Positions 1 through 33,805 of a DNA stretch of 64,000 nucleotides are shown piece by piece. Position numbers and translations under genes: made by a program. The notes under the pieces are model-generated. The model saw only the letters and a program-made list of their open reading frames with translations, was not told where the DNA came from and made no database searches. The DNA lies in NCBI GenBank assembly GCA_948144175.1, contig CANXME010002096.1, positions 2,914,001 through 2,978,000 of the forward strand, written 5' to 3'. Every line of letters begins with the position of its first letter. The first letter of the stretch is position 1. The stretch is from Closterium sp. NIES-65. Lineage: Eukaryota; Streptophyta; Zygnematophyceae; Desmidiales; Closteriaceae.

Positions 1-91
1 ACCAAAGGTACCCACTGGGACATTCTTGCTTCCACAACAAACATCAAACCCCTCATCATGCCGCCCCCCTTCCCCCCAGCACACAGCGTAC

Positions 92-3000
92 CAGGTGCAA
101 CAGCCCATGGCCGTGGGGTGGAGAGCAGGCCACGAGGGGGCGGCACTCCAGCACCTCCACGAGCACCTTGAGCAGCAGCAGATGACCCTCCAGCAGCTGC
201 GGTGTGGCAAGAACACATAGGGAATAAGGTAAAGCTTGTAAGAAGTGAGAAGAGAACTCGAGGACCGCTACGAGCACTTTGAGCGGCAGCAGATGGCCTT
301 CCAGCAGCTGAGGTATACATGGCAAGGGAGGAGAAAAATCGTTGGCATTGTTAGGTTTATTAAGTCAGGGAGCATCCCAACACCTCGATGATCAGGGAGC
401 ATCCCAACACCTCGATGATCAGGGAGCATCCCAACACCTCGATGAGCGCTTTTTGAGGAGCAGCAACAACAATCCATCACCTCCACCAGCACTTTAAGCA
501 GCGCCTCCAGATGGCTCTCCAGCAGCTAGGATGTGGCCAGAAAGTACAGGGAACACAGTGAGCTCTGTTAGGAATGAGCACTTTGGCACCTCTAGCTGCA
601 CTTTGAGCAGCAGCAGATGGCCTTCCAATCCAACAGCTGGGAAGAGGAAAGATGAGGTGAGCGTAGAAGGTGAGGAGAGAAGGTTTTTTTTTTTTTTTGG
701 TGCTCTCTCCTTTCTTCCATATTTGCTCTCCTCCTCTTCCTCCTCCATCCCCACCTCCTCTCTCCTCTCTGCACCTTTTCTCCCCGAGCCTCCTCTCCTC
801 AATGATCTCCGTCCTCGCCTCACGATGCAAGCACGAATCTGGAAAACTTCAGAGGTCTAAGAATCCTGGAGGTCCTCGAAATTCTGCTCTCAATCTCCCA
901 GAACTGATATGCATAAGTTATGCATCTATAAGTCGCAGATATCCTAGACCCTCAAGCGATCAACCTACCTCACAGATATCATCTCCTTGGTGCGACCTGT
1001 AGACGCATCACTTATGTTTATCAATATAATGAGATCGTGAGCAGCGATCCCCGAGGACCTCCAGGATTCCCAGACCTCTGAAGTTTCCTAGGAGAAGGCG
1101 CTCCTCGCGGCAAGAGTTGAGCACGAACCAAACTCAAATGTGTTTGGTAGAACTTTTCCTTACGTTTACATTCAGCCAAACCGAACTGGACAGGTTTGGT
1201 TGAACATTCTTCAAAGCAGCAGTATACTGTTGGGCATTTACAGTCTACCATTTGGCAGGGCGAGTGCCAGCCGTTCATAAATGGTACATGTTGGGGCCGA
1301 AATCGTGAGGCAGACTGTAAAACCCTAAACCACACTGTCAAATGTATACTGCTGCTTTAAGACTTTTTAGGGTTCGAGGTTTGCTTTGCTTGTACTAGGG
1401 CGAACCGAAACGGTTTGGCCAAACTTTTTAGGGTTCGGCCGAACTCAAACTTTCGGTTTGAGGGTCCATTTCATTTTACTCCTGAATTGAACCCTGCCTT
1501 GTCCGAACAGTCGAACCTTTCGAGATTATCTGTCAGGGGCAGAACCAAACAACTTCGGCCCGCCCAAACTTTTTCGAAGTTTGACCGAACATTTTTGGGG
1601 AAAACAGAAGTTCGGTTTGGTTGGAGTGCAATCGAGCACGTTCGACCGAACCGAACCAGAGTTTGGTTCGTTGCTCATCTCTACTCTCAACTCCTCACCT
1701 CCACCTTTCTCTTTCTCTACTCACAACCTCTCCCCTCACCTCTTCCCTGCCATCCATTCCCCATGTCACGTGCTGCAGCCAGCGAATCTCCTCGTCCAGA
1801 AGCTTCCTGACAACTTCCTCCTCGTCTCGAAGACACACCCCCTGCACCACCTTGCACAGCAACTCCCAGTACTGGAGGGGAGGGAGGAGCGGGTGATGGA
1901 TGAGAAGAGAGGGAGAGGAGAATGATGAATAAGTACAACACCTGAATACATCACCTTGCATAGCAACTCCCAGTGCTGGAGGGGAGGGAGGAGCGGGTGA
2001 TGGATGAGAAGAGAGGGAGAGGAGAAACGACGAATAAGTACAACACCTGAATACATCACCTTGCATAGCAACTCCCAGTACTGGAGGGGGGGGAGGGGGG
2101 GGTAAGAGGGAAGGAGAGAGAGAGATCATAGGACGTCAAACGAGGAAAAATGACGCATAGGAGCAACCAGTGGATGTACCACCTTGCACAGCTGCCCCCT
2201 CCCAGTACTGGAGGGGTTGAGAGAAAGGGGGATGAGAGGGGGGCGGGGAGGTTTGAGAGAAGGGGGGATGAGAAGGGGGGGGGGGGGGGGGTTGAGAGAA
2301 GTGGAAGTGAATGAGAGGAGAGAGAGATAAAGAGACGTCAACAGAGGAGGGGTCCCCTCCACCACAAAAATAGCAAGAGCATTGTGAATCAACGCTCCTG
2401 TCCACCACTCCACCGCTTCTCACTGATCTTCACTGCCAGGTTGTGCACTCACTGGTCTGTTGTGTTTTGGTTGCTTGTCAGCAGCAGCACGGGCAGAGGC
2501 GAGGGAGTGGAAGATGCAGGAGTGGATGGATGTGAAGGGGCGTGAGGGATGGCCTGGGAGGCCGAGAGTGGCACCAGCCTGGCCTGTCACTGCTGCTGCT
2601 CGCGATGACATTGCTGCTGCTGCTGCTGGTAGTGCTGTGGAAGCTGGTGCGACTGATGGTGCTGCTGGCTGTGTGGTGGAGGAGGGGAGTGGCGGCCACT
2701 TTTCCAGGCTGTTGGGAGGACGGGTGGGTGGGAGAATAGGAGCATGGGGGAGGACAAGGAAAAAGGTTGATTACGCCATAGGACATGGCACGATCACATG
2801 AGATGTGTGTGTTGGCGTGGTGCTAACAGGAAGATTGGGTGACTGGGCTGAGAGAATGCTAAAGATAGATGAACATCTTGTAAGGGTGAACATCAGGGTA
2901 GAAAAGTAAAGGAAAAAAAAAAACTGAACATAGAAAGATATTTACCGTCTACGTGGACCAACGCAGTACCTTATGTGAAGAAAGAGCTCTGCAAATTTGT

Positions 3001-6000
3001 ATCGAATTTCAGTTTCTGGACAGTGCAAGCAGGTGTCCTGGGGGGGTGCCAGCATGTGAAGAAGAGGATGGAATGGCCAGAGAATCAGGAGTGGATAGGC
3101 GGGAGCAAGAAACGTTAGGAGAAGTAGGGAGCATGAAGTAGAAAAAACTATCCATTTAATACATGTCTAATAGCTGAAGCTCAATTAGCTGAAGCAACGA
3201 ATGGAATGGAATGGAATGGACGGAGTACGATGAACGGGACGAGACTCACAACAATGAATCGGGAAACGAAGTGAGAGGAGAAGAGGATGGTGGCGATCTC
3301 TCTCCGACGACCCAGGCACTCTGACTGTGATATCAAGAGAAGAAGACAGGAGGTGGGTGGGGGCGGGAGGGGGGAGGGGAGGTGGGGGGGAGAGTCAGGG
3401 GAGGGAGGGAGCGAGGGGAAGTGAGAGGAGAAGAGGATGGTGGCGATCTCTCTCCGACGACCCAGGCACTCTGACTGAGGGGAACAAGAGAAGAAAAAAA
3501 GGGGGGGGGGGGGGGGAAGGGAGTGAGGGGAAGTGGGGAAAACGAATGACTGAGAATTTTTTTTTTCAAGGTGTGCAGCCACTTGCAATTTAGAAAGAGC
3601 GCGAATGAAGTCGACAAATACAAGAGGGCTTTTTGCAGGAGGAAGAAAAGGAAGAGGGGTGAAAAAATCGGGGGAAGGTGTTGAGGGGGGGGGGGGGGGG
3701 GGGGGGGGGGGAGGGGATTTGTTGGAGCAGAGGAGAAAGGGCTAAAACACCAAACTCACCGGCACCAGCGCTCCTTCTATCGCCAAGCACGCATTGTCGA
3801 GATGCAACAATAAGTCGGCAGCTTCATCCTCCCCATCATCCTCTGTTCCTCACATTCCTAGTCCCCACACACACCAGCACCACCGCTCCTTCTATCGCCA
3901 GGCAAGCATCATCAGGATGTCACAGTGAGTCTGCCCCGTCCTCATCCTCCCCATCCTCCTCCTAATCCTCTGTTCATCACTTTCCTAGCCCCACACTCAC
4001 CAGCACCACCGCTCCTTCTATGGCCAGGCACGCATCATCAGGATGCAACGGTGAATCCGCCCCGTCCTCATCCGCCTCCCAAGCGTCTCTCCATCACTCC
4101 CCCAAGCCCCACACTCACCAGCACCACCGCTCCTTCTATCGCCAGGCACGCATCATCAGGATATAACAGTGAATCCGCCCCGTCCTCATCCTCTTCCTCC
4201 TCATCATCCTCGTCCTCTGATTCATCGCTCTCCTCCCCTCCCCTCTTCCCCGAGCCGGCCTGCTCCACCCGCTGCTTTAGCCCAGACTGCAGGGCTAGGT
4301 GCTGCCAATGGTGGGAGCAATGGGAGGTGGGAGAAACAGGAGAGACAGTTAAGGGACGGGAGGGATGAAAGGGAAGAGCAGGAGAGAGGGGTGTAAAAAG
4401 AAGGATGAAATTTGGAAGGGAGCCCTACAGGTGAATCAGGGAGCAGCGAACTAACATGGGTTTTAGCAGGTGTGGGTTGCATTACACATTCATGATGTAT
4501 GTAGGTATGCATTACACATTCATGATGTATGTAGGTATGCATTACACATTCATGATGTATGTAGGTATGCGTTGCAAGGGCTTGCCTCTGAGGAGCACAA
4601 GAGGACAATCTAGCAAAAATATTATTTTATAGGCGCCTAAAGTCTTGTATTTGACAAGCACAACAGGACATTTTAACCACTAACATGCATGCACATTTGG
4701 TATGCACGCATGCATCAACACATGGACGCATGCACACATGCAGCTCTGCATGGATACATTTCTTGTGTGCACGCATACATACATACACCGTGCACAATTC
4801 ACTCACAGCAACAGCTGCTGCAGTATCGAATGCATGCGGATTGGGTGACACCATGGCCTGCAAAGAGCCAATCGATGCCGCCCAGGCGAGCATCATGATG
4901 GTATTGGTGAGCTCTGACCAATCAGCCGGCAGCAGGGTAGACGGCGCATCCATGATCTGTGGGGGCAGTAAGGAGAGGAATCAGTTATAATTCTCCCCGT
5001 GCAAGTAACAAAACGCACGAGACCGAACTGAGGGTGCATCATAATTTTTTAGACGCCTAAAGAAACAAAACGCATGGGACAAAAATGAGGTGGATCAGAG
5101 CAGCAGACTGGTGTCGCAGCGTGGTGAAGCTGGGAGAAAGCGGTGAGGAATGAGACTTACTGCTACAAATGGCGGCACATCCCTTCCAGGCACAGGGGCC
5201 ACTGCTGCTGCCGGAACAGGGGCTGCCGTCGCGGCTGCTGGCGAGTCTACAGCAGCTGCTTCTACAACTGCTTGCTGCGCTGGTGCTTGTGCTTGTGCTG
5301 GTGCTTGTGCTGCTCCAGCAGCACCTGCTGCAGGAGGCTGAGGAGCTGGGGCGTCCTCGCTAGGAACAACCCCTTTATTGGCAGCATTTTCACAAGTATC
5401 TACAGTGAGTCCCCCGTTATCCAGAATAATGTCCTGTACTTCCACGTCTTCCTCCTCCCCCTCGTCCATCCCCTCACCCACCCTCTTTGCTTCCGCGACC
5501 ACCACTGTGCCATCCGCCCTGCAGGGAACAACACCAAAGCCACACACAGGCACAGGTAGAGGTTTCACAGGAAATGAATCACCTCACCAGATGCGACAAC
5601 TTGGCTCCAACAAAAAATAAAAGAAAGAAAGAAAGAAAGAAAAGAAAGAAAGAAAGGAAAGAAATAAATAAATAAATAAATAAATAAAGAAAACAATACT
5701 TCCAATCAGTCCAGCCCAAAATTCACCTCAGCAAAGGCCAGAGAAGAATAGAAGAGCTGATTGGATAGATATCGCATAATAGTTAACAAAGAAAGAACAA
5801 GAGGCCGAGAAGCTGCTGGCAGCTTAAAAAGTGCCTCAAAAGACACCAAGTGGCTGCTGGCAGCCATTTCGAAGAAGGCACAACAGAATGATTTTGTTTT
5901 TTGAGTCGAATAAAATCGAGAATCGCTCACCGGATGAGGCAGGTTGGCTCAGACGAATTGCCAGGTGCCGTGGCAAGGAGAGGGGCGGCCGCCACTGGCA

Positions 6001-9000
6001 CTGTACGGGCTACAGTGATCCCCACAATGCTCTCTATAGTGCTTGCTACAGTACCCGCTGCTGCGGCTGTGTATGCGGCATCTGGCAGCTGCTCCTCGTC
6101 GCTGCCTTCCTCCTCGCAGTCCTCCCAGAGGCCTGGTGCTGTGCTAGAGGCGCCACCAAAGTGATCGCCAAACAGCTGAAACATGTTAGGGTTTGGGGGG
6201 CCACGGCACGATGGAAACAGGCGAACACACATCGAATTAAGGAGAGGAGAAGAAACTTTTCAAGGGCACGGCAAACAGAGACACTCACCAGGAGCTTCAG
6301 AATGTGCAGGGCGCTCATGTAGCACTTCCGCCTCGTGCTGTCATCCGTTGCACGCGGCAGGGCTTGGGTCTGAAAGACTGACATGAGGGCACTGCGGAAG
6401 GATGTAGGCGGGATGGAGAGGGGGGAGGAGGGAGAGAAGAGAGTGGCCAATTAGTAAGGGGGGCGACATGAGGGCACTGCGGAAGGATGAGAACGAGGGG
6501 GGCGTTCCGAAGGTGAGAGGGAGAGGAGGTCGGGTGTTGTTGACAAGAGAGAAAGTACTGGTGTGGTTTTTGGAGAAGTGAGAAGAAGACGGTACAGAGC
6601 AAAGAGAGGTAGAACCAGGCCCGGACATGTACACCTACAAACCAATCAGACTACACATGCCCTGAAACGATGCGGATATGAAACCATGAGCCAGAAGAAT
6701 TGAGCTTTGGGGTTTAGTAATGAGCTCAAAGCTCTCTAAGTACAAACGAAATGAGCAAGGAATGGATGAGGAGGGAATCTGAGGTAATCCCTAGGGGATC
6801 AAGGGCAATCCCAAGGCAATGTCCAATTGGTGGGTTGGAGATTGCTTGGTGATCACATTTGGGTTTGGTTGGGATGTGGGTGTGTGTACACCCAACCAAA
6901 CACAGTGCAATCTACACAACGCTAGGATATAAACGTACAAGTACAAAAGTTGAAATTGAAGTCTAGCTCTAACAAGTCATGCATTCGTTTGGGCAGACAA
7001 CAAAATTTGAAAGGTCACCTGAAGCCACTGGACTGGAGAAAGCTCGCTCGGAAGCGAAGGGTGGCAGGCGAGGGCTGGCGGTTGACAGGCAGCAATAGCC
7101 CGTCCAGCACCTGGTGGTGAGTGGCGTGGTGGGATGCATGGAGGCACACGGGCATAAGGGGCAGATGGGATGGGTGGATGGGAAGATGATGGAATGGGGC
7201 GCTGATGCATGAGAGAATTATGGTTAACAGATGGGAGCTTGGAACAGTGAGTGAGCAAGCGACGAAGTATGGTGATTACCTGCAGCAGCGTATCTGGCCA
7301 TTGCTCTAAACCCTGAAACCCCACCCTAATCACCTGCAGTAGCGTGCCTGGCGAATTGCTCTAAACCCTGAAACCCCACCCTAATCACCTGCAGTAGCGT
7401 GCCTGGCGAATTGCTCTAAACCCTGAAACCCCACCCTAATCACCTGCAGTAGCGTGCCTGACAGTCGCGCTAAACCCTTAAACCCGGAAACTGCTACACC
7501 CTCAAACAAGGAAATCCTAATCACCTGCAGCGTATAAACAAGGCGTGGCGAGGGACGCAGGAGATGCGTCAGAATGGTTGCAGCCTCGGCTGCTGATGGC
7601 GCTGACTGGATGCTCTGCAGGGGGAGTCACAGTCAGTGGTCAGATGTGAGGGAGAGAACACGAAAGAGGGAGACGATGAGAGAGTATGAAATCTAGGGCG
7701 GGTGCAGGGAGAGGGTATATAGGAGAGACAGGTCACTGTGACCAGGTGTATGTGTGCTGTGGTGATGCATGCACCTGTCCATGACGCATAGGCCCATGCG
7801 GATGCAGGTGTAGTAGCGACCTGGGCAGAATCAGATCCCACCGACCAAGAATCAAATCTTCACAACTGCGCGATCGACAAGAGATAAACAGCTCCTGCGA
7901 CTGACGACTACAAAACGATTCTCAAACACTGACAAAGAATTGAACACCTGTGTGAGTGCGACTGACTGACCATGAAATCGTCAAGAATGGCGCGGTGTGT
8001 TGGCAGCAGCATGAGGAGCTCGTCCGCTGCCTGATGTGCGGAGAGGCAGGGGAGGGGGGTGGGAAGAAGGGAAGGGAGTGGGTGGACGCTAGACATGAGC
8101 ATCGGGTTGTAAATCAACTCGAATCCAGACGACCCTGTTGCACCAGACAATTCATAACAAATTGGATTCAGTCAGGTCTGGGTGGAGTCGAGTCAACACA
8201 CCAGACGAGCCTGTTGCACTCAATACACTTTTGAAGAAGCGACTCAAGGAAGACAAACCTGCTGCACTTGATGGTTGGCGGATTGAAGCAGGCGGAAGAG
8301 AGTGCCGTACACCTGCAGGCACGCAAAGAAACGGTTCCAAACTCAGAAATATCAAGCTGGTTCATTAGTCGATCGAAAATCGAGTCTGACTAAAAAAATC
8401 AGACGGAAGGGAATGCCGTACACCTGCCATGCAGGGAGACAATTTCCCAACAACAAACAACAGAGCCGGCGGGCTGGTTCAATCATTGAAGAGCCAATCA
8501 ATCACAAGGTCAAACATCTTTGAATGAAGGCGTGAGGGAAGAAAAGTGACATGGAACATGAAACAACAAGGATAATCACAAGCATGTGATCCCCCCCGTC
8601 CGCCCCGCAGCCCTGCCACTCCGCTCTCCCCTTCCCTTCTTCTCGCTCAAATACATCCTCCTTCCTTTTGCCGACCCCATTCCCCTCAAACCCTAACCCA
8701 CCTCCCCCTGTCGTGCCATGAGCACTCCCGGAAGCTCTGCCTCCCCTCCCTCCCCTTGCTGCCTGCTGCGAGGTCGGGGATTCAGCTGGAACGAGAGGAG
8801 GCATGGGGGGGGGGTTGCACCGGAAAGGAGAGGAGCAGAAGAAAACGAAGATAGAGGCATGCAGTCACATTTAAGAGCACCTCCATTACAATCACACAAA
8901 GACAATGAAAGAACACAATCCTCTAGGCGGTTCAGGAATAGCCTAAGAGTGCATCCGTTACAGTCACACACCTACAATCATTGTAACTGAACCACACACC

Positions 9001-12000: not shown

Positions 12001-13124
12001 CACTGAATAAGCAAGGAAAAATGGGGTGGAGAAGGGGAAAGGGGGGGAGGAGAAGCAGCATTCGCAGGCAGGTAATGCATGGTGGTGGTCATCGCAGTGA
12101 CAAGGAGCAGAAACAAGAAGTAATGTGCAAAAAGAAAGAATGAAAAGAAGAAGAAGTAGAAGAAAATGCAATGTTTACACACAATGCATGGCACTGCAAA
12201 GCTCACCCACCTCCAAGCGATGGGCGAGAACTGCTCCGGAGGCAGCTGCGTCAACCAATCCAAGAGCGCCACCTGTCCCGTCGAGCTCACGGCCCCTCCC
12301 ACCACCCCGACCCCTGTGCCCACACTCCCCACCTCCCCTATCCGCCCACCCGCCTCTCCTCTCCACTCCCCCCCTTCCCTCCCCTCCACAGCATCACACA
12401 GCCACGTCAGCGCCAGCTGGCGGTCCTCAGGGCACGCTGGGTGCTCCACTAGCTCCGTCCATATCACGCGCAGCCCCTCTGGCTGTAACTCCATGCCGCC
12501 TGCCTGCACGATGGTAGAGGTTTTGGGTGTAGAAAGGGGTTTGGAATGGTGTGCTGAGAAATCAGGCACGGGTCCTTGACGAGCTGGGAAGACATGCTGG
12601 GTGTTCCACTAACAAGCCCCGTGCCTCCAGCCTGCAGGTTGGTAGAGATTTACGGTTTCACGGATTATGAAGGGGTTTAGAAAGGCGTGCAGCAGGTACG
12701 GGTCCTTGACGAGCTGGGAAGACATGCTGGGTGTTCCACTAACTCCGTCCAAATCACCCCAGCCCCTCTGTCTGTAGCTCCATGCCGCCCGCCTGGAGGT
12801 TGGTAAGGGTTAAAGAAGGGTTTAGAAAGGATTTGGGAGGGGTTTGAGAATGGTTCAAGAGGAAATTGATTCGGGGGTTGGTGAGAGGTTTAAAAAGGGG
12901 TTTATAAAAGATTCAGGAAGGGTGTTGAGAAGGCAGGCATAGGTGCTCCACTAGCTCAGTCCATATCACCCGTAGTTCTCGACGAAAGGATGACGAAAAG
13001 AAGAGGGGAAGCAAGCACCTGCAGCGCCCAGAGGAGGAAGGAGAGGCGGGCAGTGATGTTGTCGCGGTGGGAGTGCCTGCCATCCACCAACGTGCACTGC
13101 TCCAACTGCCGCTGCAGCTGCACG

Positions 13125-13175
<51 letters not shown>

Positions 13176-16100
13176 GAGCACTGCTGCTGTTGCTGCCGCC
13201 CCTCCTGCCCGTGCTTCTGCTGCTCCTCCTGCTGCTGCTGCCCTTGCGGCTCGTCACAGTCCATAGCGGGCGACGATCTCTCCTCCTCTGCCGCAACCCC
13301 ACCGCCACGGCACTCCTGCCTCACCTCTTCCGCCACCACCACGCCATGCATGGGACTGCCGTCACTGCTGGCCAAGACGCTGGCGTCTGGAACTGGTAGT
13401 GGGCTGCTGCTGCTGGGTGGAACGGGGCTGACTGGAAGAGGTTTGCTTGGAGCAGTGATGGGCTGTGGTTGGTGGGGGGAGGCAGAGCGTGCAGAGGCGA
13501 ACATGGAGCGGGCCAGGCCCTTGTAGGTCTGTAGACTGCCCAGTACCTGCAAGGGGGAGGAGAGGGAGGAAAGGAGAAAAGGACAAAAGGGGAAGGGGAG
13601 TTGAGCGCAGGGGAAGAGCATGTGGAAGGGAACAGGGAGCGGGCCAGACCCTTGTACGTCTGCAGACTGCCCGGTACCTGCTAGGGGGAGGAGGGAGTGG
13701 GAAGGGAAGTGGACATAAAGGAAAAGGAGAGGAGGGGAAAGGAAGAGAGGGGAAAGGAAGAGAGGGGAAAGGAAGAGAGGGGAAAGGAAGAGTTTGAGGG
13801 CTGGAAGAGCGTAGAGAGGCAAGCAGGATCTCAGACTGCGTGGGGTTCAGGTCTCAATGCAGACAATGTGTGCTTCCTGTGCTCTCATTGCTAGCGTGCC
13901 ATTCATGAGTGGCACAAGCAGACCTTGGAGTCATGAAGCACTGGTTTATCTATAAGACTGAAAATAAAAACCTGCTCATGCAACTCATTCCACGTCACAC
14001 ATGCCTACAGTACAGTGTTGTAATGTACTTCATTTCTTACTAAAGCAGTATGACGACTGCATGCACGAACGCTTACAGTGTACTCGAGCTCATGGTTTGC
14101 CATTTTGAGGCCCCTCAATAATGCATGCATGCTTACAAGTACTCAAGCTCGTGGTTTGAATTCCTATTCATCCTTACAGTTGGGGTGGAGCGCAGTTGGG
14201 GTGCGGAGAGATGATTTTCCGAACTGCACCCTCAAGAATGCATGCATGCTTACAGTGTACTCGAGCTCGTGGTTTGCATTCAGCGATTGCAGCTGAGCCT
14301 GCAGCATCTGCTGCTCCTGCAACACACGAGACGAGCAACGAAGGAATGACGAGAGGCATGCAGTAGTGAGGTAGGGAGGGGTTGACATGACTAGCAATAG
14401 CAACTTTAACATGCTCATAACAAGACGGAAACAAATTGCACACACGGACACTTGCATGCTGCACAAACACACACACAGTAACACACATGCACCTCGGCAA
14501 GTGGAGCGCAGCTGGGGTGCAGAGAGATGATTTTCCGAATAAAAGGAATGGAAGGGCAAACGGAGGAGTGCAAGGCGGTGAGAGCAGCACCTCAGCAGGT
14601 GGAGCGGGGTTGGGGTGCAGAGAGATGATCTCCCGCACATGGAGGAAGGGGAAATGCAGGAGTGCAAGGGGGTTGAAGAATCACCTCAGCAGGTGGAGCG
14701 GGGTTGGGGTGCAGAGAGATGATCTCTCGCAGCAGCTGGAGGGCTGGTATGACACTCTCCTCCCGCGAGATGGCTTGTAGGCAGCGTTGCATGTACTCCT
14801 GTAAGAGAGAAAGAAGGGGTCGCGGTGGGGAGAGGGGAAGGGGGGTTTTGGAGGGGGGAGGAGAGAGGGACGGGGAGGGGAGGGGGTTAAATGAGAATAG
14901 GAGGAATGACACTCTCCTCCCGCGAGATGGCCTGCAGGCAGCGCTGCATGTACTCTTGTGAATGGGAAGTGAGGAAGAAATAGCGGGAGGGATGGAGTGT
15001 GTGGAGAAAAGAGAAATAGCACTCCCTTTTTCGAGAAGGGAAAAGGAAGGTCTGCAGGCAGGCACTGCATTACTCCTGAGAAGTGTATCATGGGGGGGAA
15101 AGAAGAAAACGGAGAAATACTGAGAGCACTCATGGACAAAAAATGGAACACAAAAACAAACCCCTGAAAGAACATATTACTCACGAACCAGAAAATTGAT
15201 AGTGAAAGGGTCCCACCTCTTTATTAGCACACCCAACAGAAGCATAGTGGCCCAACACCTCCGTGAGGGCCTTCGATTCAAGCACGTTCACTGATGCAAC
15301 ATCTGCTGCTGCTGCCAGTGCTGCTGCCGATGCTGCTGCTGATGCTGCTGCCGATGCTGACGCTGACCCTGACGTTTGGACTGCATGGGTGTGAGGCGGG
15401 TCGAATACGAGTGTCCAGAGAAGCTGCAGCAGCCTGTATGGAGAGTGTAGGGGGGAAGATGGGACAGAAGAATGAGTGGATACCAATGCTGATGCTGCTG
15501 CCGATGCTGCTGCTGATGATGATGACCCTGTTGGAACTGAGTGGGTGTGAGGCGGGTCAAACACGAGCGTCCAGAGCAGCTGGCTGGAGCAGCCTGCAAG
15601 GAGGGAATAGGAGGGTCCCATCTCTCCAAGAAAAGTAGAAAATGAAAGAATTAGGCACCAGCTCTGCTGTGAAAAGTGAGAGTACAGCAGATTGCTGCAC
15701 CATTTGCATTTAAAATCCAACTGACAGGCACGAAAGCCACAGGAATTCACCAGAACCTACAAATTTCACCTAAACGAAACATCACCTGAAAGCCACGAAA
15801 AATCACCTGGAGGCCATGACGCCACGGGTGTCGGACCGCGCGAGCTTCTTCACCAGCTGCATCAGCTTCGCTATATCTGCCGCTGAGCGACCCTGGTGGG
15901 GCGGGGAGGAAGGAGCAAAGAAGCGGGCTAAGATCAGCTCAGGAAATTCAAATAGGAATGTGAGGTGAGGACTTCTCCTCACATGCCTGGTTTTCCCACC
16001 AGCTGCATCAGCTTTGCGATGTCTGCTGCTGAGCGACCCTGGTGGAGAGGGGGGGAAGGAAGAAAGAAGTCGGCTTGGTTCAACTCAGAAGGAGTGATTT

Positions 16101-19100
16101 TCTGCCACTCGCTGTCTACGTGACCCTGGAATGGGTAGGAGGTTTTTTTAGTCGACATAAAAGCAAATTCAACTCCGAAGGTGTGATTTTCTGCCATTTG
16201 CTGTCTATGTGACCCTGGAATGGGTGGGAGGAGGCAGAGAGGTGGCACGTTGCATACACATTCAGAGGCAGAGAGGTGGCACGTTGCATACACATTCAGA
16301 GGCAGAGAGGTGGCACGTTGCATACACATTCAGAGGCAGAGAGGTGGCACGTTGCATACACATTCAGAGGCAGAGAGGTGGCACGTTGCATACACATTCA
16401 GAGGCAGAGAGGTGGCACGTTGCATACACATTCAGAGGCAGAGAGGTGGCACGTTGCATACACATTCAGAGGCAGAGAGGTGGCACGTTGCATACACATT
16501 CAGAGGCAGAGAGGTGGCACGTTGCATACACATTCAGAGGCAGAGAGGTGGCACGTTGCATACACATTCAGAGGCAGAGAGGTGGCACGTTGCATACACA
16601 TTCAGAGGCAGAGAGGTGGCACGTTGCATACACATTCACAGCACAAGCTTCACACATGTGAGTGGGTGGGTTCGTTCATGTGCCTTGGCTTAAAATAACA
16701 AACAATTGCACCCACCCCACTCACATGTGTGAAGCTTGGCTCGGCTCTGGAGAGAAGCCTACGAGGCTACGCACATGCCATGCCACCATGGGACACTGGC
16801 AGAGTGGTCCTTTTCTTTTCAAGTCATGCAAATGCATGAAGAAGGAAGGCGTGAGAGCAGCAGCGGTCACCTGGATGTGTTGCAGGCGTGAGAAGAGCGA
16901 GTCGAGGTAATCATGCCTCACTGTCTGTGTGATGTTTCATGCATGTCATCCGAGAGCAGCGGTCACCTGGATGTGTTGCAGGCGTGAGAAGAGCGAGTCG
17001 AGGTAATCATGCCTCACTGTCTGTGTGATGTTTCATGCATGTCATCCGAGAGCAGCGGTCACCTGGATGTGCTGCAGGCGTGAGAAGAGCGAGTCGAGGT
17101 AATCATGCCTCACTGTCTGTGTGATGTTTCATGCATATCATCCGAGAGCAGCGGTCACCTGGATGTGCTGCAGGCGTGAGAAGAGCGAGTCGAGCTGCTC
17201 GTCTGAGAAGGACCAGGCCAGCTCCGCCAGCAGATCGAAAATGTTGTTCTTCACCTGCACAGCGAGAGGAAGGAAGGAATAAGGGGGAAGTCGAGGGGGG
17301 GAGCATGAGGAGGGGAGGAAAGAGAGTCGAGGTGATCATAGGGGAAGGACCAGGCTAGCTCCGCCAGCAGGTCAAATGGCAGCTTGTTCTTCACCTGCCA
17401 GGGAGAGGAAGGAAGGAATGAGGGGAAGCTTAGCTTCGCCACGCCATGATGCTCTATGAATGCCTCCTCACTACCTGGACATTCTCGACTGCTTCTCCCT
17501 GGCTCGCCTGCACGGCCTCCCCTCGGGTCACCTGAGCTTTTTCAGCTGCCTCATCCCACCCTGTCCAGATGTTTCCCCACCTCGCGAAAATCGCTAAGGC
17601 GCCTAAAAAAACAGAAGCCCAACCCATACATCTCACTCATCGCACTCAAACCACACCTCACCGCTTCACACCATGCCTCACCGCTTCAAACTGGTCGGGC
17701 TTCTCAGTGGCGGCCCACACGGCATCCAGGTGCTTCCCCAGCAGGCGGCGCTGGTTGAGCAGCGCCCTCATGATCTTTACCACCTGGGGGAGAATGGGGG
17801 AAAGGAGGGAGGAATAAGACGAGGCTTCTCAGTGGCAGCCCACACGGCGTCCAGGTGCTTCCCCAGCAGGCGACGCTGGTTGAGCAGCGCCCTCACGATC
17901 TTTACCACCTGGGGGAGAATGGGGGAACGGCGGGAAGGAATAAGACGAGGCTTCTCAGTGGCAGCCCACACGGCGTCCAGGTGCTTCCCCAGCAGGCGAC
18001 GCTGGTTGAGCAGCGCCCTCATGATCTTTACCACCTGGGGGAGAATGGGGGCAAGGGGGGAGGAATAAGACGAGGCTTCTCAGTGGCAGCCCACACGGCG
18101 ATGCTGGTTGAGCAGCGCTCGCATGATTCGCACGACCTGGGGAAGAAGGGGGTTTTGTTGGGCGGGAGGAGGGTGGGGGGAAGAGGGGAAGAGGGGAAGA
18201 GGGGAAGAGGGAAGGAGATAAGACGAGGCTTCTCAGTCGCGGCCCACACGGCGTTGAGCAGTGCTGGTTGAGCAGCGCTGGTTGAGCGGCGCTGGTTGAG
18301 CGGCGCTGGTTGAGCAGCGCTGGTTGAACAGCGCCCTCATGATTCGCACGACCGATAGTTGGTGCGAAACAGGGAGGGAGGAAATTCCACCATATTAGTT
18401 AGATGTTTTTAAAAAAAAAACAAAAAAAACAAAACAAAAAAAAACAACAACAACAACAAAAACAAGGCGGGCGCACAAGAGGACGTACTTGGTCCACGTA
18501 TTGCTTGTGGTGCAGGTTGGAGCGCAGGACAAGTGGCAGAATCTTATTGGCCTCCAGCCAATTGATTGTTGATCTCAAGGCTGCTCCCTTGTCCCTGAAA
18601 TCACACACACATGGCGCATCAGTGAACAAAACAAGAACTTGCATGTCTGAGTTTACTCAAAACTCTTCCTTGTATCAGAAGCCACATGACATACACATGG
18701 CTCATGGCACGTCACCACAAATATATATATATATATATAAATATATATGCATATATATACATATATAAACAAGACAACAGAATCTCGAGCATGTGGTTGA
18801 TTTCTCTGGTGGCTGACAGCTGCTTGCTGAATGAAAGCACTCCCAGCATGCGCTTCACCATGCTCTCCCATGCTGCCCCATACACACACCCATCAACAGC
18901 CGACAGCTGTTGACAGCTGCTTGCTGAACGATGGCACTCCCAGCATGCGCTGCAGCACCATGCGCCTCTGCACCACCCCCACTACCCCACTCATAATCAA
19001 CCACCTCACCTCACCCCCAGCTCACCTCATATCATCTGCACCCGGAACGCCACAAGACCACTCACTCACCTCATCTTCAGAGCAGCTGAGCTTTCGAGCA

Positions 19101-20588
19101 TGCGGTTGATCTCCCTGGCCGCCGATAACTGCTTGCTGAACGATGGCGCTCCCAGCATGCGCTTCACCATGAGCCTCTGCACCGTCCCCACTACTGCCTC
19201 TGCTGCCACCTCCACATCATCAACATCAGCATCCTCCTCATCCTCCTCCTCCTCTTCTTCCTCTTCTTCCTCTTCTTCCTCCTCTGCCTCCGCAAGACTA
19301 ATGTCAAAGAGAATGTCGCGAACGCTACTAGCAGAGGAGGGCAGGGCGAGCAGCGCGCGAACATGGCGCAGAGTGAGTGAGAGGCACTGGAAGGAGCCGT
19401 CCCGGGGGCCCTCGTTGAGAGATTCCATGTGGTAGCCGATGCACCGCGTTATGGCCAGCAGCAATTCCTTGCAGGGCTGGTGGGTGGGGTGGGGAAGGGA
19501 GGGAGGGGGAGAGAGAGAGAGGGAGAGAGGACTGCTTGAGGGAGAGAGGGTGAGGGAGAGAGGGTGAGGGAGAGAGGGTGAGGGAGAGAGGGTGAGGGAG
19601 AGAGGGAGGAGGGGGCAGGGGGAACAGGGTGAGCGAGAGGCACTGGAAGGAGCCGTCCCTGGGCCCCTCGTTGAGTGAATCCATGTGATTTCTGCTGATG
19701 CAGCGCTGCCGGTTATGGCCAGCAGGACGGCCCTGCACGGCCGATGGAGGGGGGGGAGAGAGGGAGAGAGCGAGGAGAGTGCCGAGAGAGGGAGAAACAA
19801 GAAGTATGCAGGTAAGAATGCAGGTAAGAATGCAGGTAAGAATTAATACTTCTTGTCTAACTGGCAGGACGGCTCTGCTCTGCACGTTTAAGAGAGCCAG
19901 TGAGATGAGACGCAGAGAGAGGGATAGTATGGAAGAAGAGTGACCACGTGTTTCAGACAGCGGAGGTTAGAGAGGGTGACCACATGTTTCAGCGAGCGGT
20001 GGTGAGAGAAGGTGAGACTTCGTGGTTGAACAGACAGAAGGAGGAGGTTAGTGAAGGAGCGGAAGGGGAATCTTCAAGACTGGAAGCTCCGGAATACAAA
20101 GAGGGGGGTGGAGAGGAGAGAGGGGAGCGAGATGAATGCAATGCGTGCAACCAAGGAAAGAGCAATTGTATCTAAGAAGTGCATTCAGTGAGAGAAGTTG
20201 AAAGGGCAAAACGCGCCAACCCCAACAAGCAGCAGCATGTTGCTGACGTGTGGAGTGAGAAACTCTGCTGCCGTTAGCAGGGAACGCAGCAAACTTGCAA
20301 ACCAGCACAAGTAGACAGACTAGATGAAGGCACAAGATGAAAGCAACATAACACCAAATCAAGCACAAAGGCTGACGTCACAAGCTAGGCTCGACGACAG
20401 CCACGAAGTGAGCCCCAATCCCCACCCACCAGCAGCAGCATGTTGCCATCGTGAGGAGTGGGGAACTCGGCTGCTGCTGCTGCCAGGGTGACAGGCTAGC
20501 AGCAAACAGGGCGACACATATATCAAATGCCAAAAAGATCAAGGCGTGCATCACAGGGATGAGGCATGATGAGACCCCCACCACCAGC

Positions 20589-20619
<31 letters not shown>

Positions 20620-22636
20620 CCACCACCACCACCACCACCACCACCACCACCACCAGGCATGTTGCCGACGTGAGGAGTGGGGAACGCTGCTGCTGTTGCC
20701 AGGGGTCGCAGCAGCACCTCTACCACCACCAAAGGCATGCGCTGCGGCAGGGGGGCGTGTTGGAGAGACGGGGAAGAAGGGGAGGGACTTTAGAGTGGAC
20801 TCAAAAGGTACCTACCTGCAGCAGCATGTTGCCGACGTGAGGGGTGAGGAACTCTGCTGCCGTTGCCAGGGGGCGCAGCAGTGCCTCTACAGCCACCAGA
20901 GGCATGCGTGGCCAGGGGATGCGGGGGAGAGGTGGGGACGGCGATGAGGGTGGTAATGCCGCCTTCCTGCCCACGAAACCCTCCTGCCGTCCCTGCTGCT
21001 CCTGCCACTTGTGCCGTTGCTGCCGTTCGTGCTCTTGTCTGATTGTTCCTAACCTAGCAGCATGTGCTTCGATCTGCCTGTCAAACCCCGACATGAGCCT
21101 CAGAAGCACCTGCACCACGCGTCCATACCCATTCCCATACGCCGTCTGCCCAAAGTAGTTCAGAAACCGCACCAGCCACTGGTGCGAGCCCACGCTTCCG
21201 CCCTCCCCTTCTTCCCCCCTTTCCCCCCCGCCTCTCCTCCCCCCAGCCGCCTGGGATCCGGGGGAAGGGAGTCCGGGGAGGGAGGGACCGATTGGGGCGG
21301 GGTCTAGGGGCAGGGAGATGGCATAGAAGCACGGGCGGTCCAATCGCGGCGCAACACGTGGCAGCTGCTCGTTCTTGTGTTTGCAGTGGAACTGACATGT
21401 GCTGTCCCATCCCTGCGCCATGGCTGTTAGAAGCGCTGCTATCTCCTCTTCTACCTCCACACTCCTCCTCTCTGCCTCCTCAACCTCCTCCTTCCTCTCC
21501 CTCACTCTCTCCCCCTGCCCGTCCCCCTCCCCTCCACCCACCACTCCTTCTCCAGCCGCAGCAGCCGCAGCAGCCGCTGCATCCGCCAGAGCCTCCCTCA
21601 CTATAATCAACTCAAGCAGCTTCAGTACAATCACATCCATAAGGGAAACAAACGCCTCGAAGATATTCCCATGCACGTCACGTCCCCACTTCCAGATCGC
21701 GCGGTCGTCCAGGCACTTCTCAAACAGGCTAGGCGCGGCCTCCCTGAAGAGCGTCGCCAGCTTGCGCTTCAGCACAGCGCGTCGCATCAGCCGCTGCGCC
21801 TCTGCTCGCACCGCGGGACTCACTATAGGACCTGACTCGTCCGGGTCTGCTGCGACAGGTGCAGCACCAGCCGCACCAGCAGAAGCAGCAGCACCAGAAC
21901 CAGCATCAGCAGCGGGAGAAGCAGCGTGGAGTATGCGAGCAGCGGCAGCGAGGCAGGAGCGCATGTGGTTAGGCCAAACCGTCCAAGGCCACTTGCCCAA
22001 CCCGTCCATGATCGTCCCCAGCAGCGACCCTGGGAACTCCAGATCCGCTACAGTCATCTCCGGCGCTACAGCCGTCCCCCGCGCGGTGGATCCTGCGGCT
22101 CTCGCTGGACGACGTGGCAGCCGCGGCCCCATGCGGCGATCTTCGTCCACGTCATCGTCGTCATCCGCCACGTCATCATCATCCTCGTCGTCGTCAGATG
22201 GGGTCGTGACTCGCGCGCGTTCCAAGGGCGCGGGGGACATCTCGGGGAGCGGAAGAGCCGCGGGGGGAGGGGAATCGGGCCACTGAAAAGGCTGAAAAGA
22301 CTCCTCAGGAGGCTCGTCCGCATCGTCGTCCCCCTCCTCCCCTTCCTCCTCCCCCTCCTCCCCCTCCTCCGCCTCCGCCTCATCCCCTAGTTCCTCTTCC
22401 TCCACTTCCCGCACGCCTGAATCTTCTTCCGCCTCTGCTACAGCCTCCGCCGCCGCTCTCCGCGCGTTATTTCCGCGCTGCGCCTCCTCCGCGCCTCTGC
22501 TGCCGTCGCTCGACCCCTCGCTTCCCTCCGACGGGCTCCACCCGCGTTCCTCGTCTCGCATGTCGTTTGCTCCTTCCGAATCCGATCCCGATTTCGCTTC
22601 TGACGAGCGACGAGCTGCGGACCGGCTGTCCATCAT
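92..22636 (-). CDS. USP9X/FAF-like ubiquitin carboxyl-terminal hydrolase, 5' part of gene (partial)
   Basis: A large deubiquitinase of peptidase family C19, which removes ubiquitin from substrate proteins. Only the long helical-repeat N-terminal region and the internal ubiquitin-like module are in the window; the Cys/His catalytic domain would lie beyond base 1, so activity cannot be judged. The ATG at 22636 opens a 607-codon exon rich in acidic and Ala stretches. Later exons follow the order of animal USP9X: LRSNLHHKQYVDQ (18489-18594), LDAVWAATEKP (17682-17783), DLLAELAWSF (17159-17254), SVIPALQLLREI (14685-14798), the ubiquitin-like exons (9000-9392), STRRKCYMSALHILKLL (6289-6391), SIGSLQAMVSPNP (4807-4956) and LLEGHLLLLK (92-196). 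Family assignment rests on this colinear similarity, recalled rather than searched. Low-complexity inserts (Q16, acidic runs) lengthen it relative to animal proteins. Confidence 0.85.
245..651 (-). repeat. Acceptor-side copies of exon 31, plus a 27-bp triplet repeat
   Basis: Three decayed copies of the start of the 92-196 exon lie in the upstream intron (about 245-312, 435-526 and 583-651). Each ends at a cag|ctg-type acceptor like the real one. A 27-bp unit is repeated three times at about 364-445. Confidence 0.7.
1945..2213 (-). repeat. Acceptor-side copies of exon 30
   Basis: Three copies of the exon start with its tactgggag-like acceptor edge lie upstream (on the right) of the exon at 1770-1871. 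They sit in G-rich, GGGGAGGGAGGAG-type spacers that are themselves repeated. Confidence 0.75.
3420..3480 (-). repeat. Copy of exon 28 start
   Basis: This stretch repeats most of 3265-3324, including the acceptor edge and the coding of SECLGRRREIATILF, about 150 bases upstream in the transcript sense. Poly-G runs follow at about 3499-3514 and 3687-3711. Confidence 0.75.
3760..4118 (-). repeat. Donor-side copies of exon 27
   Basis: Three copies of the 3' end of the exon at 4119-4286 follow it downstream (about 4000-4050, 3880-3935 and 3765-3815). Each encodes a variant of ACLAIEGAVVL and keeps a GTGAGTG- or GTGTGTG-like donor. The spacers between them are also related. Confidence 0.8.
4478..4570. 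repeat. 30-bp tandem repeat, three copies
   Basis: A unit containing cattacacattcatgatgta is repeated three times without variation in the intron between exons 27 and 26. Confidence 0.9.
5621..5692. repeat. AAAG / AAAT microsatellite
   Basis: An (aaag)n run passes into an (aaat)n run within the intron between exons 25 and 24. Confidence 0.9.
7262..7465 (-). repeat. Donor-side copies of exon 21 (about 54-bp tandem)
   Basis: Four copies of a block read as gctactgcag|gtgattagg on the minus strand follow the exon at 7525-7614. They reproduce its ctgcag|gtgattagg junction. The intervening part is a short ctaaaccctgaaacccc-like unit, which resembles plant telomere-type words but is not a telomere array. 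Confidence 0.8.
9000..9392 (-). other. Ubiquitin-like module encoded by exons 16 and 17 (9392-9312, 9131-9000)
   Basis: The two exons encode a stretch that reads like a beta-grasp fold: VTVAHSKHVNFFVHTHANEY and LRLLRLK, then VAHKLECDLARVRLLLDGHE and LLSDWLVLRQCGITDG. Family members carry an internal ubiquitin-like domain at this position, after a block like exon 15 and before a PGV-containing linker like exon 18 (ELPGVLMARQG). Both exons are phase 0 on both sides, so the module could be skipped without a frameshift. Confidence 0.7.
9238..9258. repeat. AT microsatellite
   Basis: A short (at)n run in the intron between exons 17 and 16. Confidence 0.85.
9516..9971 (-). repeat. 32-bp minisatellite made from the exon 15 end and its splice donor, about 14 copies
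   Basis: The array abuts the exon at 9972-10058. On the minus strand each unit holds the exon end tttcaggtggag followed by the donor gtgagatctg, almost identical to the true junction tttcaagtggag|gtgagatct. The array fills most of the intron, so about 14 consensus donors lie in a row. Copies are essentially identical, implying recent expansion. Confidence 0.9.
10165..10249 (-). repeat. Acceptor-side copy of exon 15
   Basis: A copy of nearly the whole 87-base exon lies upstream in the intron, ending at the same ggaattg|ctggga acceptor edge. It is about 80% identical by eye. Confidence 0.8.
10993..11310 (-). repeat. Copies of exon 14 start and exon 13 end
   Basis: 10999-11044 duplicates the start of exon 14 (SFIGECM coding and its acceptor). 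11098-11310 holds two partial copies of the 3' half of exon 13, including the QLKGV and LVAPEK coding parts. Confidence 0.75.
11700..11850 (-). repeat. Acceptor-side copies of exon 13
   Basis: Two shortened copies of the exon 13 start (about 11705-11745 and 11795-11850) precede the true acceptor at 11661. Confidence 0.65.
12580..12970 (-). repeat. Acceptor-side copies of exon 12
   Basis: Three partial copies of the exon start (ELQPEGLRVIWTELVEH coding) precede 12503, at about 12595-12640, 12715-12796 and 12940-12972. Tandem ggtttagaaaggg-like words lie between them. Confidence 0.7.
13127..13174 (-). repeat. CTG/CAG trinucleotide run coding for polyglutamine
   Basis: Sixteen uninterrupted glutamine codons lie in frame inside exon 11 (13019-13546). 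The flanks are also Gln-rich, giving a disordered segment of roughly 60 residues. Confidence 0.9.
13610..13800. repeat. Copy of exon 11 start and a GA-rich 15-bp tandem
   Basis: 13620-13680 duplicates the exon 11 start (LQTYKGLARS coding) and acceptor. 13735-13792 is a short tandem of ggaaaggaagagagg. Confidence 0.7.
14070..14165 (-). repeat. Donor-side copies of exon 10
   Basis: Two copies of the NANHELEYT-coding end of the exon at 14254-14316 lie downstream of it, each with a gtaag-like donor. Confidence 0.75.
14485..15080 (-). repeat. Copies flanking exon 9 on both sides
   Basis: Donor-side copies of the exon end (REIISLHPNPAPPAE coding) occur at about 14495-14545 and 14590-14640. Acceptor-side copies of the exon start (YMQRCLQAISREESV coding) occur at about 14907-14955 and 15050-15077. 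The real exon is 14685-14798. Confidence 0.85.
15480..15600 (-). repeat. Acceptor-side copy of exon 8
   Basis: This repeats the exon start (LLWTLVFDPPHTH coding and the Ala-rich gctgat tract), with an acceptor like that at 15433. Confidence 0.8.
15970..16215 (-). repeat. Acceptor-side copies of exon 7 and a duplicated linker
   Basis: 15990-16042 copies the exon 7 start (GRSAADIAKLMQLV coding). 16088-16135 and 16178-16225 are two copies of a further linker, each ending in the same gacc|ctgg edge. Confidence 0.75.
16230..16637. repeat. 34-bp minisatellite, about 12 copies
   Basis: Near-perfect copies of a 34-bp unit containing ggcagagaggtggcacgttg, in the intron between exons 7 and 6. Because 34 is not a multiple of three, it stays open in all three plus-strand frames; this is an artefact, not a protein. 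Confidence 0.95.
16862..17158 (-). repeat. Three tandem donor-side copies of exon 6, about 93 bp each
   Basis: Each unit holds the last ~37 bases of exon 6 (SLFSRLQHIQ coding), its CAG|GTGACC donor and about 55 bases of intron. The true exon is the rightmost copy, 17159-17254. A separate acceptor-side copy of the exon start lies at 17345-17396. Confidence 0.9.
17784..18352 (-). repeat. Tandem acceptor-side copies of exon 4, about 126 bp each
   Basis: At least four copies of the first ~29 codons of exon 4 with their acceptor precede the true exon (17682-17783). The two nearest copies and the exon read through in one frame (right ends 17908 and 18034), so a 42-residue unit is repeated without a stop. 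The outer copies, 18060-18352, are degraded into gctggttgag repeats. Confidence 0.85.
18409..18775. repeat. A-rich and AT microsatellites flanking exon 3
   Basis: 18409-18468 is a poly-A/AAC tract just downstream of exon 3 (18489-18594). 18720-18772 is an (at)n run upstream of it. Confidence 0.85.
18786..19885 (-). repeat. Copies flanking exon 2 on both sides
   Basis: Donor-side copies of the exon end (LGAPSFSKQLSAAREINR coding) lie at about 18786-18870 and 18905-18990. Acceptor-side copies of its start lie at about 19620-19738 and 19855-19885. A gagagagggtgaggga tandem fills 19500-19610. Exon 2 itself (19070-19476) carries a TCC/TCT run coding for about 20 acidic residues. Confidence 0.8.
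20229..20745 (-). repeat. Donor-side copies of exon 1 and a CCA/GGT run
   Basis: Three copies of the exon 1 end (LATAAEFLTPHVGNM coding) lie downstream, at about 20656-20745, 20432-20500 and 20229-20285. They become less similar with distance. A (cca)n run of about 60 bases at 20596-20655 sits at the edge of the first copy. Confidence 0.85.
20816..22636 (-). other. First exon of the USP9X-like gene
   Basis: An open stretch of 607 codons from the paired ATG ATG at 22636-22631 to a GTAGGT donor just left of 20816. The first ~190 residues are Ser/Glu/Asp-rich with long acidic runs and are probably disordered. A folded part follows with blocks such as FLNYFGQTAYGNGYGRVVQVL and PLATAAEFLTPHVGNMLLQ, which look like helical repeats. 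The start is chosen because it is the only long open first exon and the frame continues cleanly into the exon at 19476. Confidence 0.75.
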
Positions 22637-26639: not shown

Positions 26640-27600
26640 CGTTTTTTTTAGGGCCCACCGAAGCGCGCCCCGAGGCGCGCAATTTTTTTCGCGACCCTTC
26701 GGGTCGCCTTACTCTCGCGGCCCCGCTGTCCCTCTGACGCGGCCCCGCCACCCCTGCTTGACGCGGCCCCGCCGCCTCCTCTGCAGCGGCTCCGCCGCCT
26801 CCTCAGACGCGGCCCCGCCGCCCGCTGATCGCGGCCCCGCCGCCCGCTCTGACGCGGCCCCGCCGCCGGCTCTGACGCGGCCCCGCCGCCCGCTGATCGC
26901 GGCCCGCCGCTGGCCCTGACGCGGCCCCGCTGCCGGCTCTTAGCCGGCCTCGCCGCCGGCTCCAACGCGGCCCCGCCGCCCGCCTCGACGAGGCCCCGCC
27001 GCCGGCTCTGACGCGGCCCCGCCGCCGCCTCCTGATCGCGGCCCCGCCTCGGCTCTCTCGCGGCCTCGCCGCCGGCCCTGACGCGGCCCCGCCCCGGCTC
27101 TCACGCGGCCCCGCTGCCGGCTCTCTTGCGGCCCCGACACCGGCTCTCTTGCGAACCCGCCCCGGCTCTCTTACGGCCCCGCCGCTGGCCCTGACGCGGC
27201 CCCTGCCTCGGCTCTCCGGCGGCCCCGCCGCCGGCTCTCTTGCGGCCCTGCCGCCAGCTCTGAAGCGGCCCCGCCCCTGCTCTCACGCGGCCCTGCCGCC
27301 GGCTCTGACGCGGCCCCGCCCCGGTTCTTTCACGCGGCCCTGCCGCCCCACCTACAGCAGCCGAGCCGCCCTGTCGCCGAGCCCCCCCCGGGAGCCGAGC
27401 CGCCCTGCCCCCGAGCCGCCCTGCCGCCGAGCCGCCCGGGAGCCGAGCCGCCCTGCACCCGAGCCGCCCAACCGCCGAGCAGCCCGGGAACCGAGCCGCT
27501 GTGCACCCGAGCCGCCCGGTCGCCGAGTCGCCTTTCTGCAGAGCTGCACGACCTGCCCTGCCTGGTGAGCACCGTCCCACTGTCACTGCGAGCTCTTTCC
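26640..27600 (+). other. GC-rich repetitive leader of copia A
   Basis: About 950 bases of reiterated gcggccccgccgccggctct-like units passing into gagccgccctgc units. Open frames on both strands here are repeat artefacts. Elements B, C and D have equivalent leaders with different units. Confidence 0.8.
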
Positions 27601-27631
27601 CTACTGCTTGCACTGCGTCGCTGTCGTCGCC

Positions 27632-32633: not shown

Positions 32634-32638
32634 CATGC

Positions 32639-33743: not shown

Positions 33744-33805
33744 TTCAAAATATATACACCTTGTGTTCAGATTTGCTCCCAAAGTTACACGACCAACTGA
33801 TCAAC

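Follow-up and report, generated by a model that had tools for sequence, protein, structure and literature searches.

Copies of exon edges and their splice sites in the introns of two Closterium genes

Do the introns of a Closterium gene hold copies of the exon edges that flank them and, if so, how did these copies arise and does the spliceosome use them? The question is raised by a window of 64,000 nucleotides from Closterium sp. NIES-65, the whole stretch of DNA analysed here. Its left third is a ubiquitin protease gene of the USP9X/UBP24 type on the minus strand. The curated model of this gene has GT-AG borders at all 30 introns and one frame of 2313 open codons with 0 stops. The frame is still open at position 92, and therefore the gene continues beyond the left edge of the window; its catalytic domain lies outside. 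The median lengths are 106 nucleotides for exons and 422.5 for introns, and the introns are in phase 0 (24) or phase 2 (6), none in phase 1. The gene matched the Pfam family PF25010 (ARM_UBP24_USP9X-Y, 4.8e-59) and the structure of human USP9X (7yxx, 2.1e-34). Closterium proteins matched it as well, among them P0001 of NIES-53, with 87% identity to the model at residues 741-1724, approximately exons 3-20; P0001 was also the sole match in a third homolog search. An initial automatic prediction of 145 exons served as a guide only and was superseded by the curated model of 31 exons. A trained ab initio predictor called 49 exons and had 20 of the 31 curated exons exact.

Copies of exon edges in the introns, termed decoys here, were collected as HSPs, as TRF arrays and in a strict search confined to the side of an exon where its copies would be expected, with no more than 70 exon bases in the query. 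HSPs were removed if shorter than 18 bp, spaced by more than 2500 or below a trinucleotide entropy of 3.6, which dropped 14 in USP9X and 4 in a second gene, WSD. The features of the USP9X-like gene are as follows.

92..22636, minus strand: USP9X/UBP24-like gene, 31 exons (curated model; ATG at 22636, exon 31 ends at 92)
20229..20741, minus strand: three copies of the exon 1 end, at 20657-20741 (without donor), 20424-20488 and 20229-20291 (HSPs, strict search)
19625..19795, minus strand: exon 2 start-edge decoy, acceptor AG altered (HSPs, strict search)
18785..18985, minus strand: two exon 2 end-region decoys, donor outside the alignment (HSPs)
17823..18353, minus strand: exon 4 start-edge decoys, 125-bp units (acceptor and exon start) and older degraded copies (TRF, HSPs)
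17315..17425, minus strand: exon 5 start-edge decoy (HSPs, strict search)
16859..17098, minus strand: exon 5 end-edge decoys, 96-bp head-to-tail copies with a donor in each (TRF, HSPs)
16231..16638, no strand: comparison array without a junction, 34-bp unit x12, 100% matches, in intron 5 only (TRF)
15997..16088, minus strand: exon 6 start-edge decoy; differences 4 synonymous, 0 nonsynonymous (HSPs)
15487..15615, minus strand: exon 7 start-edge decoy (HSPs, strict search)
14903..14959, minus strand: exon 8 start-edge decoy, AG lost; differences 4 synonymous, 0 nonsynonymous (HSPs)
14489..14637, minus strand: exon 8 end-edge decoys, 94-bp units (TRF, HSPs)
14061..14163, minus strand: two exon 9 end-edge decoys with donors (HSPs, strict search)
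13612..13747, minus strand: exon 10 start-edge decoy (HSPs, strict search)
12619..12975, minus strand: exon 11 start-edge decoys at 12619-12743, 12723-12846 and 12942-12975 (HSPs, strict search)
11795..11836, minus strand: exon 12 start-region decoy, acceptor outside the alignment (HSPs, strict search)
11087..11305, minus strand: two exon 12 end-region decoys, synonymous to nonsynonymous differences 11:2 and 7:2, donor on the first
10999..11049, minus strand: exon 13 start-edge decoy, open and in frame if used (strict search)
10167..10249, minus strand: exon 14 start-edge decoy (HSPs, strict search)
9517..9971, minus strand: 32-bp array in which the exon 14 donor recurs 14 more times (TRF)
7275..7485, minus strand: 55-bp array, weakly linked to the exon 20 donor edge by a short match, unrelated by the family threshold
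6465..6489, minus strand: exon 22 start-edge decoy, 25/25 identical (control test, HSPs)
3750..4079, minus strand: exon 26 end-edge decoys in donor-bearing units of 118 bp (TRF, HSPs)
3418..3538, minus strand: exon 27 start-edge decoy, 57/57 exon bases identical, intron part 49/62
1949..2216, minus strand: exon 30 start-edge decoys in acceptor-bearing units of 105 bp (TRF, HSPs)
256..631, minus strand: three exon 31 start-region decoys, acceptors on two (HSPs, strict search)

For each USP9X junction, the edge was compared by alignment with its own intron and, as controls, with the 29 other introns of the gene. The own intron scored above all 29 controls for 30 of the 60 junctions, of which approximately 2 were expected by rank. 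These 30 junctions were spread over 23 of the 30 introns, and five of them were weak (scores 21-27). A score of at least 28 was reached at 25 of the 60 junctions, and the alignment crossed the junction in 19 of those 25. The strict threshold retained 36 decoys, which occupy 16 of the 30 introns and derive from 21 junctions, 14 of them acceptors and 7 donors; the junction lay inside the alignment for 29 of the 36. Local repeats made up 5,793 of the 15,606 intron bases.

The initial annotation had described copies of exon starts upstream of exons and of exon ends downstream in nearly every intron of this gene, and the same pattern in the WSD gene. Exon-edge copies are confirmed in the introns of both genes, and the side rule held in the unrestricted USP9X HSP list. 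The wording "nearly every intron" went too far, since the copies occupy 16 (strict search) to 23 (control test) of the 30 introns, and exons 28, 21 and 15, named as clear cases, had no support under our exon numbering. A search on the opposite side matched 4 of 58 USP9X edges and 3 of 12 WSD edges; the exons concerned are all short, at 75-138 nt, and the 70-nt query overlaps their other edge. Taken as a set, these matches are probably the same decoys.

The WSD gene codes for a wax synthase/DGAT protein and shows the same structure. The own intron beat all 36 controls at 10 of its 14 junctions, and the alignment spanned the junction in all 10.

35446..42282, minus strand: WSD (wax synthase/DGAT) gene, 8 exons, 736 aa
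41051..41193, minus strand: exon 2 end-edge decoy, 127/143 identical
40367..40836, minus strand: exon 3 start-edge decoys at 40367-40408 and 40784-40836
39202..39273, minus strand: exon 4 start-edge decoy
38978..39021, minus strand: exon 4 end-edge copy, score 43, slightly below the strict threshold
38508..38606, minus strand: exon 5 end-edge decoy, approximately 90/95 exon bases, acceptor excluded
38060..38133, minus strand: exon 6 start-edge decoy, synonymous to nonsynonymous differences 4:10, one of them a stop
37325..37580, minus strand: exon 6 end-edge decoys, 151-bp units, 110/110 and 92/105 identical, the second without GT
36913..37029, minus strand: exon 7 start-edge decoy
36425..36642, minus strand: exon 7 end-edge decoys
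35644..35733, minus strand: exon 8 start-edge decoy

Chance similarity, or low-complexity sequence taken for copies, would be favoured by introns rich in C/T and G/A simple tracts, and some control introns did score up to 58. Since every control intron was nevertheless beaten at 30/60 and 10/14 junctions, and a 32-bp unit at the exon 14 donor had 14 matches in the window but 0 in 100 shuffles, we regard this explanation as practically negligible. Mobile intron sequence (introners or transposon-borne sequence) was rejected on the same own-intron results; a few junctions with a low own score matched another intron, with control scores up to 49. Insertion of cDNA was rejected because no HSP joined two exons.

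The initial annotation had proposed tandem duplication across exon-intron boundaries as the origin of the copies. This is supported by seven head-to-tail TRF arrays that include a junction (84-99% matches), by the repeat-rich introns and by the second gene. With A for an exon start and D for an exon end, these arrays are A30 (105 bp), D26 (118 bp), D14 (32 bp), D8 (94 bp), D6 (21 bp), D5 (96 bp) and A4 (125 bp). The clearest is D14, in which the 32-bp unit is repeated approximately 15 times at the exon 14 donor. The other edge copies are single and diverged. A narrower reading, in which introns grow solely at junctions, was dropped, as arrays confined to introns exist.

Two related processes were considered for the structure of the copies. 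In an intron created by tandem duplication, the donor is followed at once by a copy of the start of the downstream exon. This process was rejected because the start-edge decoys precede the real acceptor by 104-569 nt. All junction-aligned start-edge decoys except A2 and A8 have their own AG. In whole-exon tandem duplication, which also yields mutually exclusive exons, exon-derived copies likewise adjoin the exon. No whole USP9X exon was contained in any single HSP of the unrestricted list, and the WSD exon 5 decoy, the nearest case with approximately 90/95 bases, is without an acceptor, so that whole-exon duplication was rejected as well.

We consider it probable that repeated small tandem duplications across single junctions, a filter by selection and conservation of the exon side produced the decoys, which are mostly ignored in splicing. 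Small head-to-tail duplications would recur, those crossing a junction with units mostly of 85-300 bp and at the shortest 21 and 32 bp. A duplication within an exon or of a whole exon would alter the protein and be removed by selection. A duplication of a single junction would be tolerated: the functional edge would stay on the exon body and the extra copy, along with an acceptor or donor of its own, would remain in the intron. As selection would fix the exon-side copy, junction duplications would stay recognisable for longer than intron-only ones. The spliceosome would mostly ignore the decoys, probably by exon definition, in which a short intact exon with both of its sites is preferred to an edge without the partner site. 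The junction arrays, the lack of a whole-exon HSP, the own-intron specificity, the intact sites with scores like those of real ones, the random placement of arrays, the short exons with longer introns, the direct joining of WSD exons 6 and 7 in most gene models and the WSD exon 7 end multiplied in a single model support this model. Against it stand the high number of junction-linked repeat families, the synonymous excess, the unrecognisable intron parts at 8 of 19 junctions and the gene models that include decoys, which are treated in turn below.

Ordinary intron repeats, according to the initial annotation, would not track splice junctions. At this locus, that is doubtful. Junctions in USP9X are spaced approximately 375 bp apart; a unit placed at random would cross one with a frequency of 35% in the present introns and of 51% once repeats are stripped. 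The TRF test took 19 rows of period at least 20, from which one overlapping 192-bp row and 2 wholly exonic rows were excluded. A junction was included in 7 of the 17 arrays tested (null mean 6.4, P=0.47), and in 7 of a chosen subset of 15 (null 6.1). Diverged single copies were tied to junctions far more often: in a self-comparison with a manual family count, approximately 22 of 24 families with periods above 50 bp were junction-linked. A first simulation with equal rates and pooled ages gave an expectation of 38-40% junction-linked, and under equal decay the observed count had a P of 1e-8 to 4e-5. With introns decaying 2-3x faster, it was ordinary at a divergence of 0.10 (P 0.01 to 1) and still unlikely at 0.06 (P 2e-8 to 0.01).

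The tracking of junctions may thus be largely survivorship: diverged repeats appear to track junctions because selection preserves the exon-side copy. Survivorship would suffice under certain conditions only, since in the simulations faster intron decay cancels the excess over just a part of the range, and duplication may have a true preference for junctions. A duplication process that prefers exon edges, for example through microhomology of splice sites or transcription-linked structures, would account for the approximately 22/24 linked families, of which 35-52% would be expected under equal decay, and for the TRF arrays of period above 50, of which 5 of 6 included a junction (null 3.2, P=0.14). 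Against such targeting are the near-random rate over all 17 arrays, the eight arrays with at least 90% matches, of which 4 included a junction (null 4.0), and the removal of the excess by faster intron decay in part of the tested range. We judge it unlikely.

The splice sites of the decoys were mostly intact and as strong as the real ones. Of 29 junction-aligned USP9X decoys, 27 retained the junction dinucleotide, as did 10 of 11 readable WSD decoys. These counts show no sign of purging, although the alignment itself favours intact sites. The leave-one-out site score of the real USP9X site exceeded that of the decoy by a mean of 0.25 (sd 2.09), and the decoy scored at least as high as the real site in 17 of 27. 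The initial annotation had suggested that the decoys could feed alternative splicing. A role in protein diversity found no support: if used, 24 of the 27 intact decoys would cause a frameshift or stop, and all 14 further exon 14 donors would cause a frameshift or an added stop. Only A13, A27 and A31 (at 307) would be open and in frame.

Some of the copied edges are also multiplied in gene models of other strains. Edges were compared across 17 gene models, P0005 and P0008 being left out, and some edge was present at least twice in 6 of the 17 and not in the other 11. Such multiplied edges in protein models show presence, not absence, since models normally hide introns. The exon 13 start edge (twice) and the exon 14 end of USP9X were multiplied in Naga37s-1 P0002, and the exon 2 end in Yama58-4 P0007. 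For WSD, the exon 3 start was multiplied in P0010, P0011 and P0012 and the exon 6 end in P0012; the exon 7 end occurred 7 times in NIES-53 P0019 and at most a single time in any of the other 10 WSD models tested. By eye, P0003 contained two segments absent from the modelled USP9X exons.

The NIES-64 protein P0009 matched the peptides of all 8 WSD exons exactly, and the NIES-65 model P0012 contained 5 of the 8. Inspection by eye found decoy sequence inside both of these WSD models, and P0016 ran into an intron. Ten Closterium models extend to exon 6, and in 7 of them (P0010, P0011, P0013, P0014, P0015, P0018 and P0019; by eye) exon 7 follows directly on exon 6. The decoy sequence between exons 6 and 7 in P0009 (36717-37987) is a possible annotation error. 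The ab initio predictor, run without RNA, chose the same decoy inclusion as P0009. The annotation pipeline behind the Closterium models is described as having used RNA evidence (PMC10407611), and therefore some decoy use is possible; P0009, P0012 and P0016 could reflect it.

Functional decoys, that is, copies serving as alternative splice sites for isoforms or unproductive transcripts, would agree with the mostly intact and strong sites, with the in-frame, open A13 (its edge doubled in Naga37s-1 P0002), A27 and A31 (307), with the decoy sequence seen by eye in P0009 and P0012, and with a coding-like substitution bias (see below). The frameshifts and stops count against protein isoforms, though not against unproductive splicing; the bias is shared by decoys unable to code; and the NIES-53 models P0001 and P0003 hold each of the edges they contain (37 of 60) once only. 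Taken together, these points leave a function for the decoys quite improbable.

Decoys and real exons of USP9X differed at 47, 37 and 125 of 620 first, second and third codon positions, respectively, and those of WSD at 36, 24 and 71 of 328. With one best decoy per junction, the third-position share in USP9X was 78/118, whereas simulated neutral decoys had means of 0.45-0.46 and a maximum of 0.57 in 90 runs. Synonymous changes made up 111 of 183 codon changes in USP9X (0.607), a fraction of 0.482 in WSD (interval 0.370-0.593) and 0.559 in both genes (cluster bootstrap 0.487-0.635); the simulated neutral fraction was approximately 0.40-0.44. The USP9X differences are too synonymous for neutral decay; WSD alone is compatible with neutrality. 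The bias was also present in decoys unable to code, namely A8, which has lost its AG, and D12, which is out of frame and contains stops.

Other comparisons concerned the origin of these differences. At 65 amino-acid differences in USP9X, the orthologs matched the real exon in 41, the decoy side in 12 and were ambiguous in 12; the 41 therefore arose on the decoy. In the exon 2 decoy, 5 of 6 amino-acid differences matched the Yama58-4 protein P0007, the sole ortholog available there. Indels were multiples of 3 in 7 of 18 cases in the exon part and in 4 of 40 in the intron part. The intron part was examined in one junction-aligned decoy per junction, at 19 of the 21 junctions. It beat all controls at 11 of the 19 and failed to do so at the other 8, where the exon part was 81-96% identical.

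The synonymous bias and the intron-part data would be consistent with copies that had diverged before they were joined, or with conversion limited to exons. Such copies could come from unequal exchange or template switching between diverged gene copies (paralogs, hybrid parents), or the real exons could later have been overwritten from gene copies of this kind by exon-limited conversion; decoy and real edge would then differ mainly at synonymous sites. The third-position excess in both genes, the share above the simulated maximum, the synonymous fractions, the persistence of the bias in A8 and D12, the exon 2 decoy and the indel pattern all point in this direction. Hybrid origin and recombination between diverged copies have been reported for one strain, NIES-4550, in a study of the frequently duplicating Closterium psl complex (PMC10407611). 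Against it, WSD alone does not reject neutrality, 41 of 65 amino-acid differences arose on the decoy, and the D5, A4 and A27 decoys are nearly identical to the real edges, as plain recent duplication predicts. We hold this origin as a tentative alternative to duplication within one gene copy. Still more speculatively, exon edges might be copied continually into introns from diverged copies of the same gene (paralogs, hybrid parents), and the introns would accumulate fossil alleles with live splice sites.

Tandem repeats at exon-intron boundaries are already known. The Closterium copies stand out by their density, by their one-edge form and by the strength of their splice sites. Internal tandem repeats at such boundaries were described in human segmental-duplication genes, where they vary between gene copies and are reported to alter splicing and lengthen introns (PMC2812944). 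As in Closterium, the human repeats overlap the boundary and many are of minisatellite size (PMC2812944). Across the human set, the count was 27 intron modifications, supported by RNA (PMC2812944). In Closterium, as many as half of the junctions in one gene and the majority in a second are affected, and the copies seen in the DNA are largely single and diverged. Exon-derived sequence also enters an intron when tandem duplication of a coding sequence that contains a proto-splice site gives rise to a new intron (PMC2891723). The Closterium case differs in that no intron is created: existing introns receive extra edge copies, mostly with an acceptor or donor of their own. The study of the Closterium psl complex, on copy-number variation and hybrid recombination, deals with whole genes and contigs, and exon-edge duplications are unmentioned in the sections considered here (PMC10407611). 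Among the literature matches listed, which mostly did not extend to subscription journals, no report of exon-edge decoys in Closterium was found.

The two genes offer a natural experiment in how the spliceosome chooses among near-identical sites, as for dozens of decoys the chief difference from the real site is that the other half of the exon is missing. RNA from one strain would directly test exon definition in a streptophyte alga. For annotation, the decoy sequence in the WSD models P0009 of NIES-64 and P0012 of NIES-65 is a warning. Decoys that keep residues of other strains (12 of the 65 differences) may serve as a record of the history of a gene.

An Rfam search gave no match. An uninterrupted frame of 1891 aa at 45272-50947 on the plus strand belongs to a Copia-type retrotransposon and includes domains of the integrase, SH3-like and reverse transcriptase types; a copy related to it, at 27569-32320, is broken into two frames. 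At 32601-34807 on the plus strand, an RNase H-like frame is followed by a tyrosine-recombinase frame (PF00589), a layout that we take to be that of a DIRS-like element. Arrays of a GC-rich 23-bp unit lie at 26716-27348 and 44417-44994, upstream of two Copia frames.
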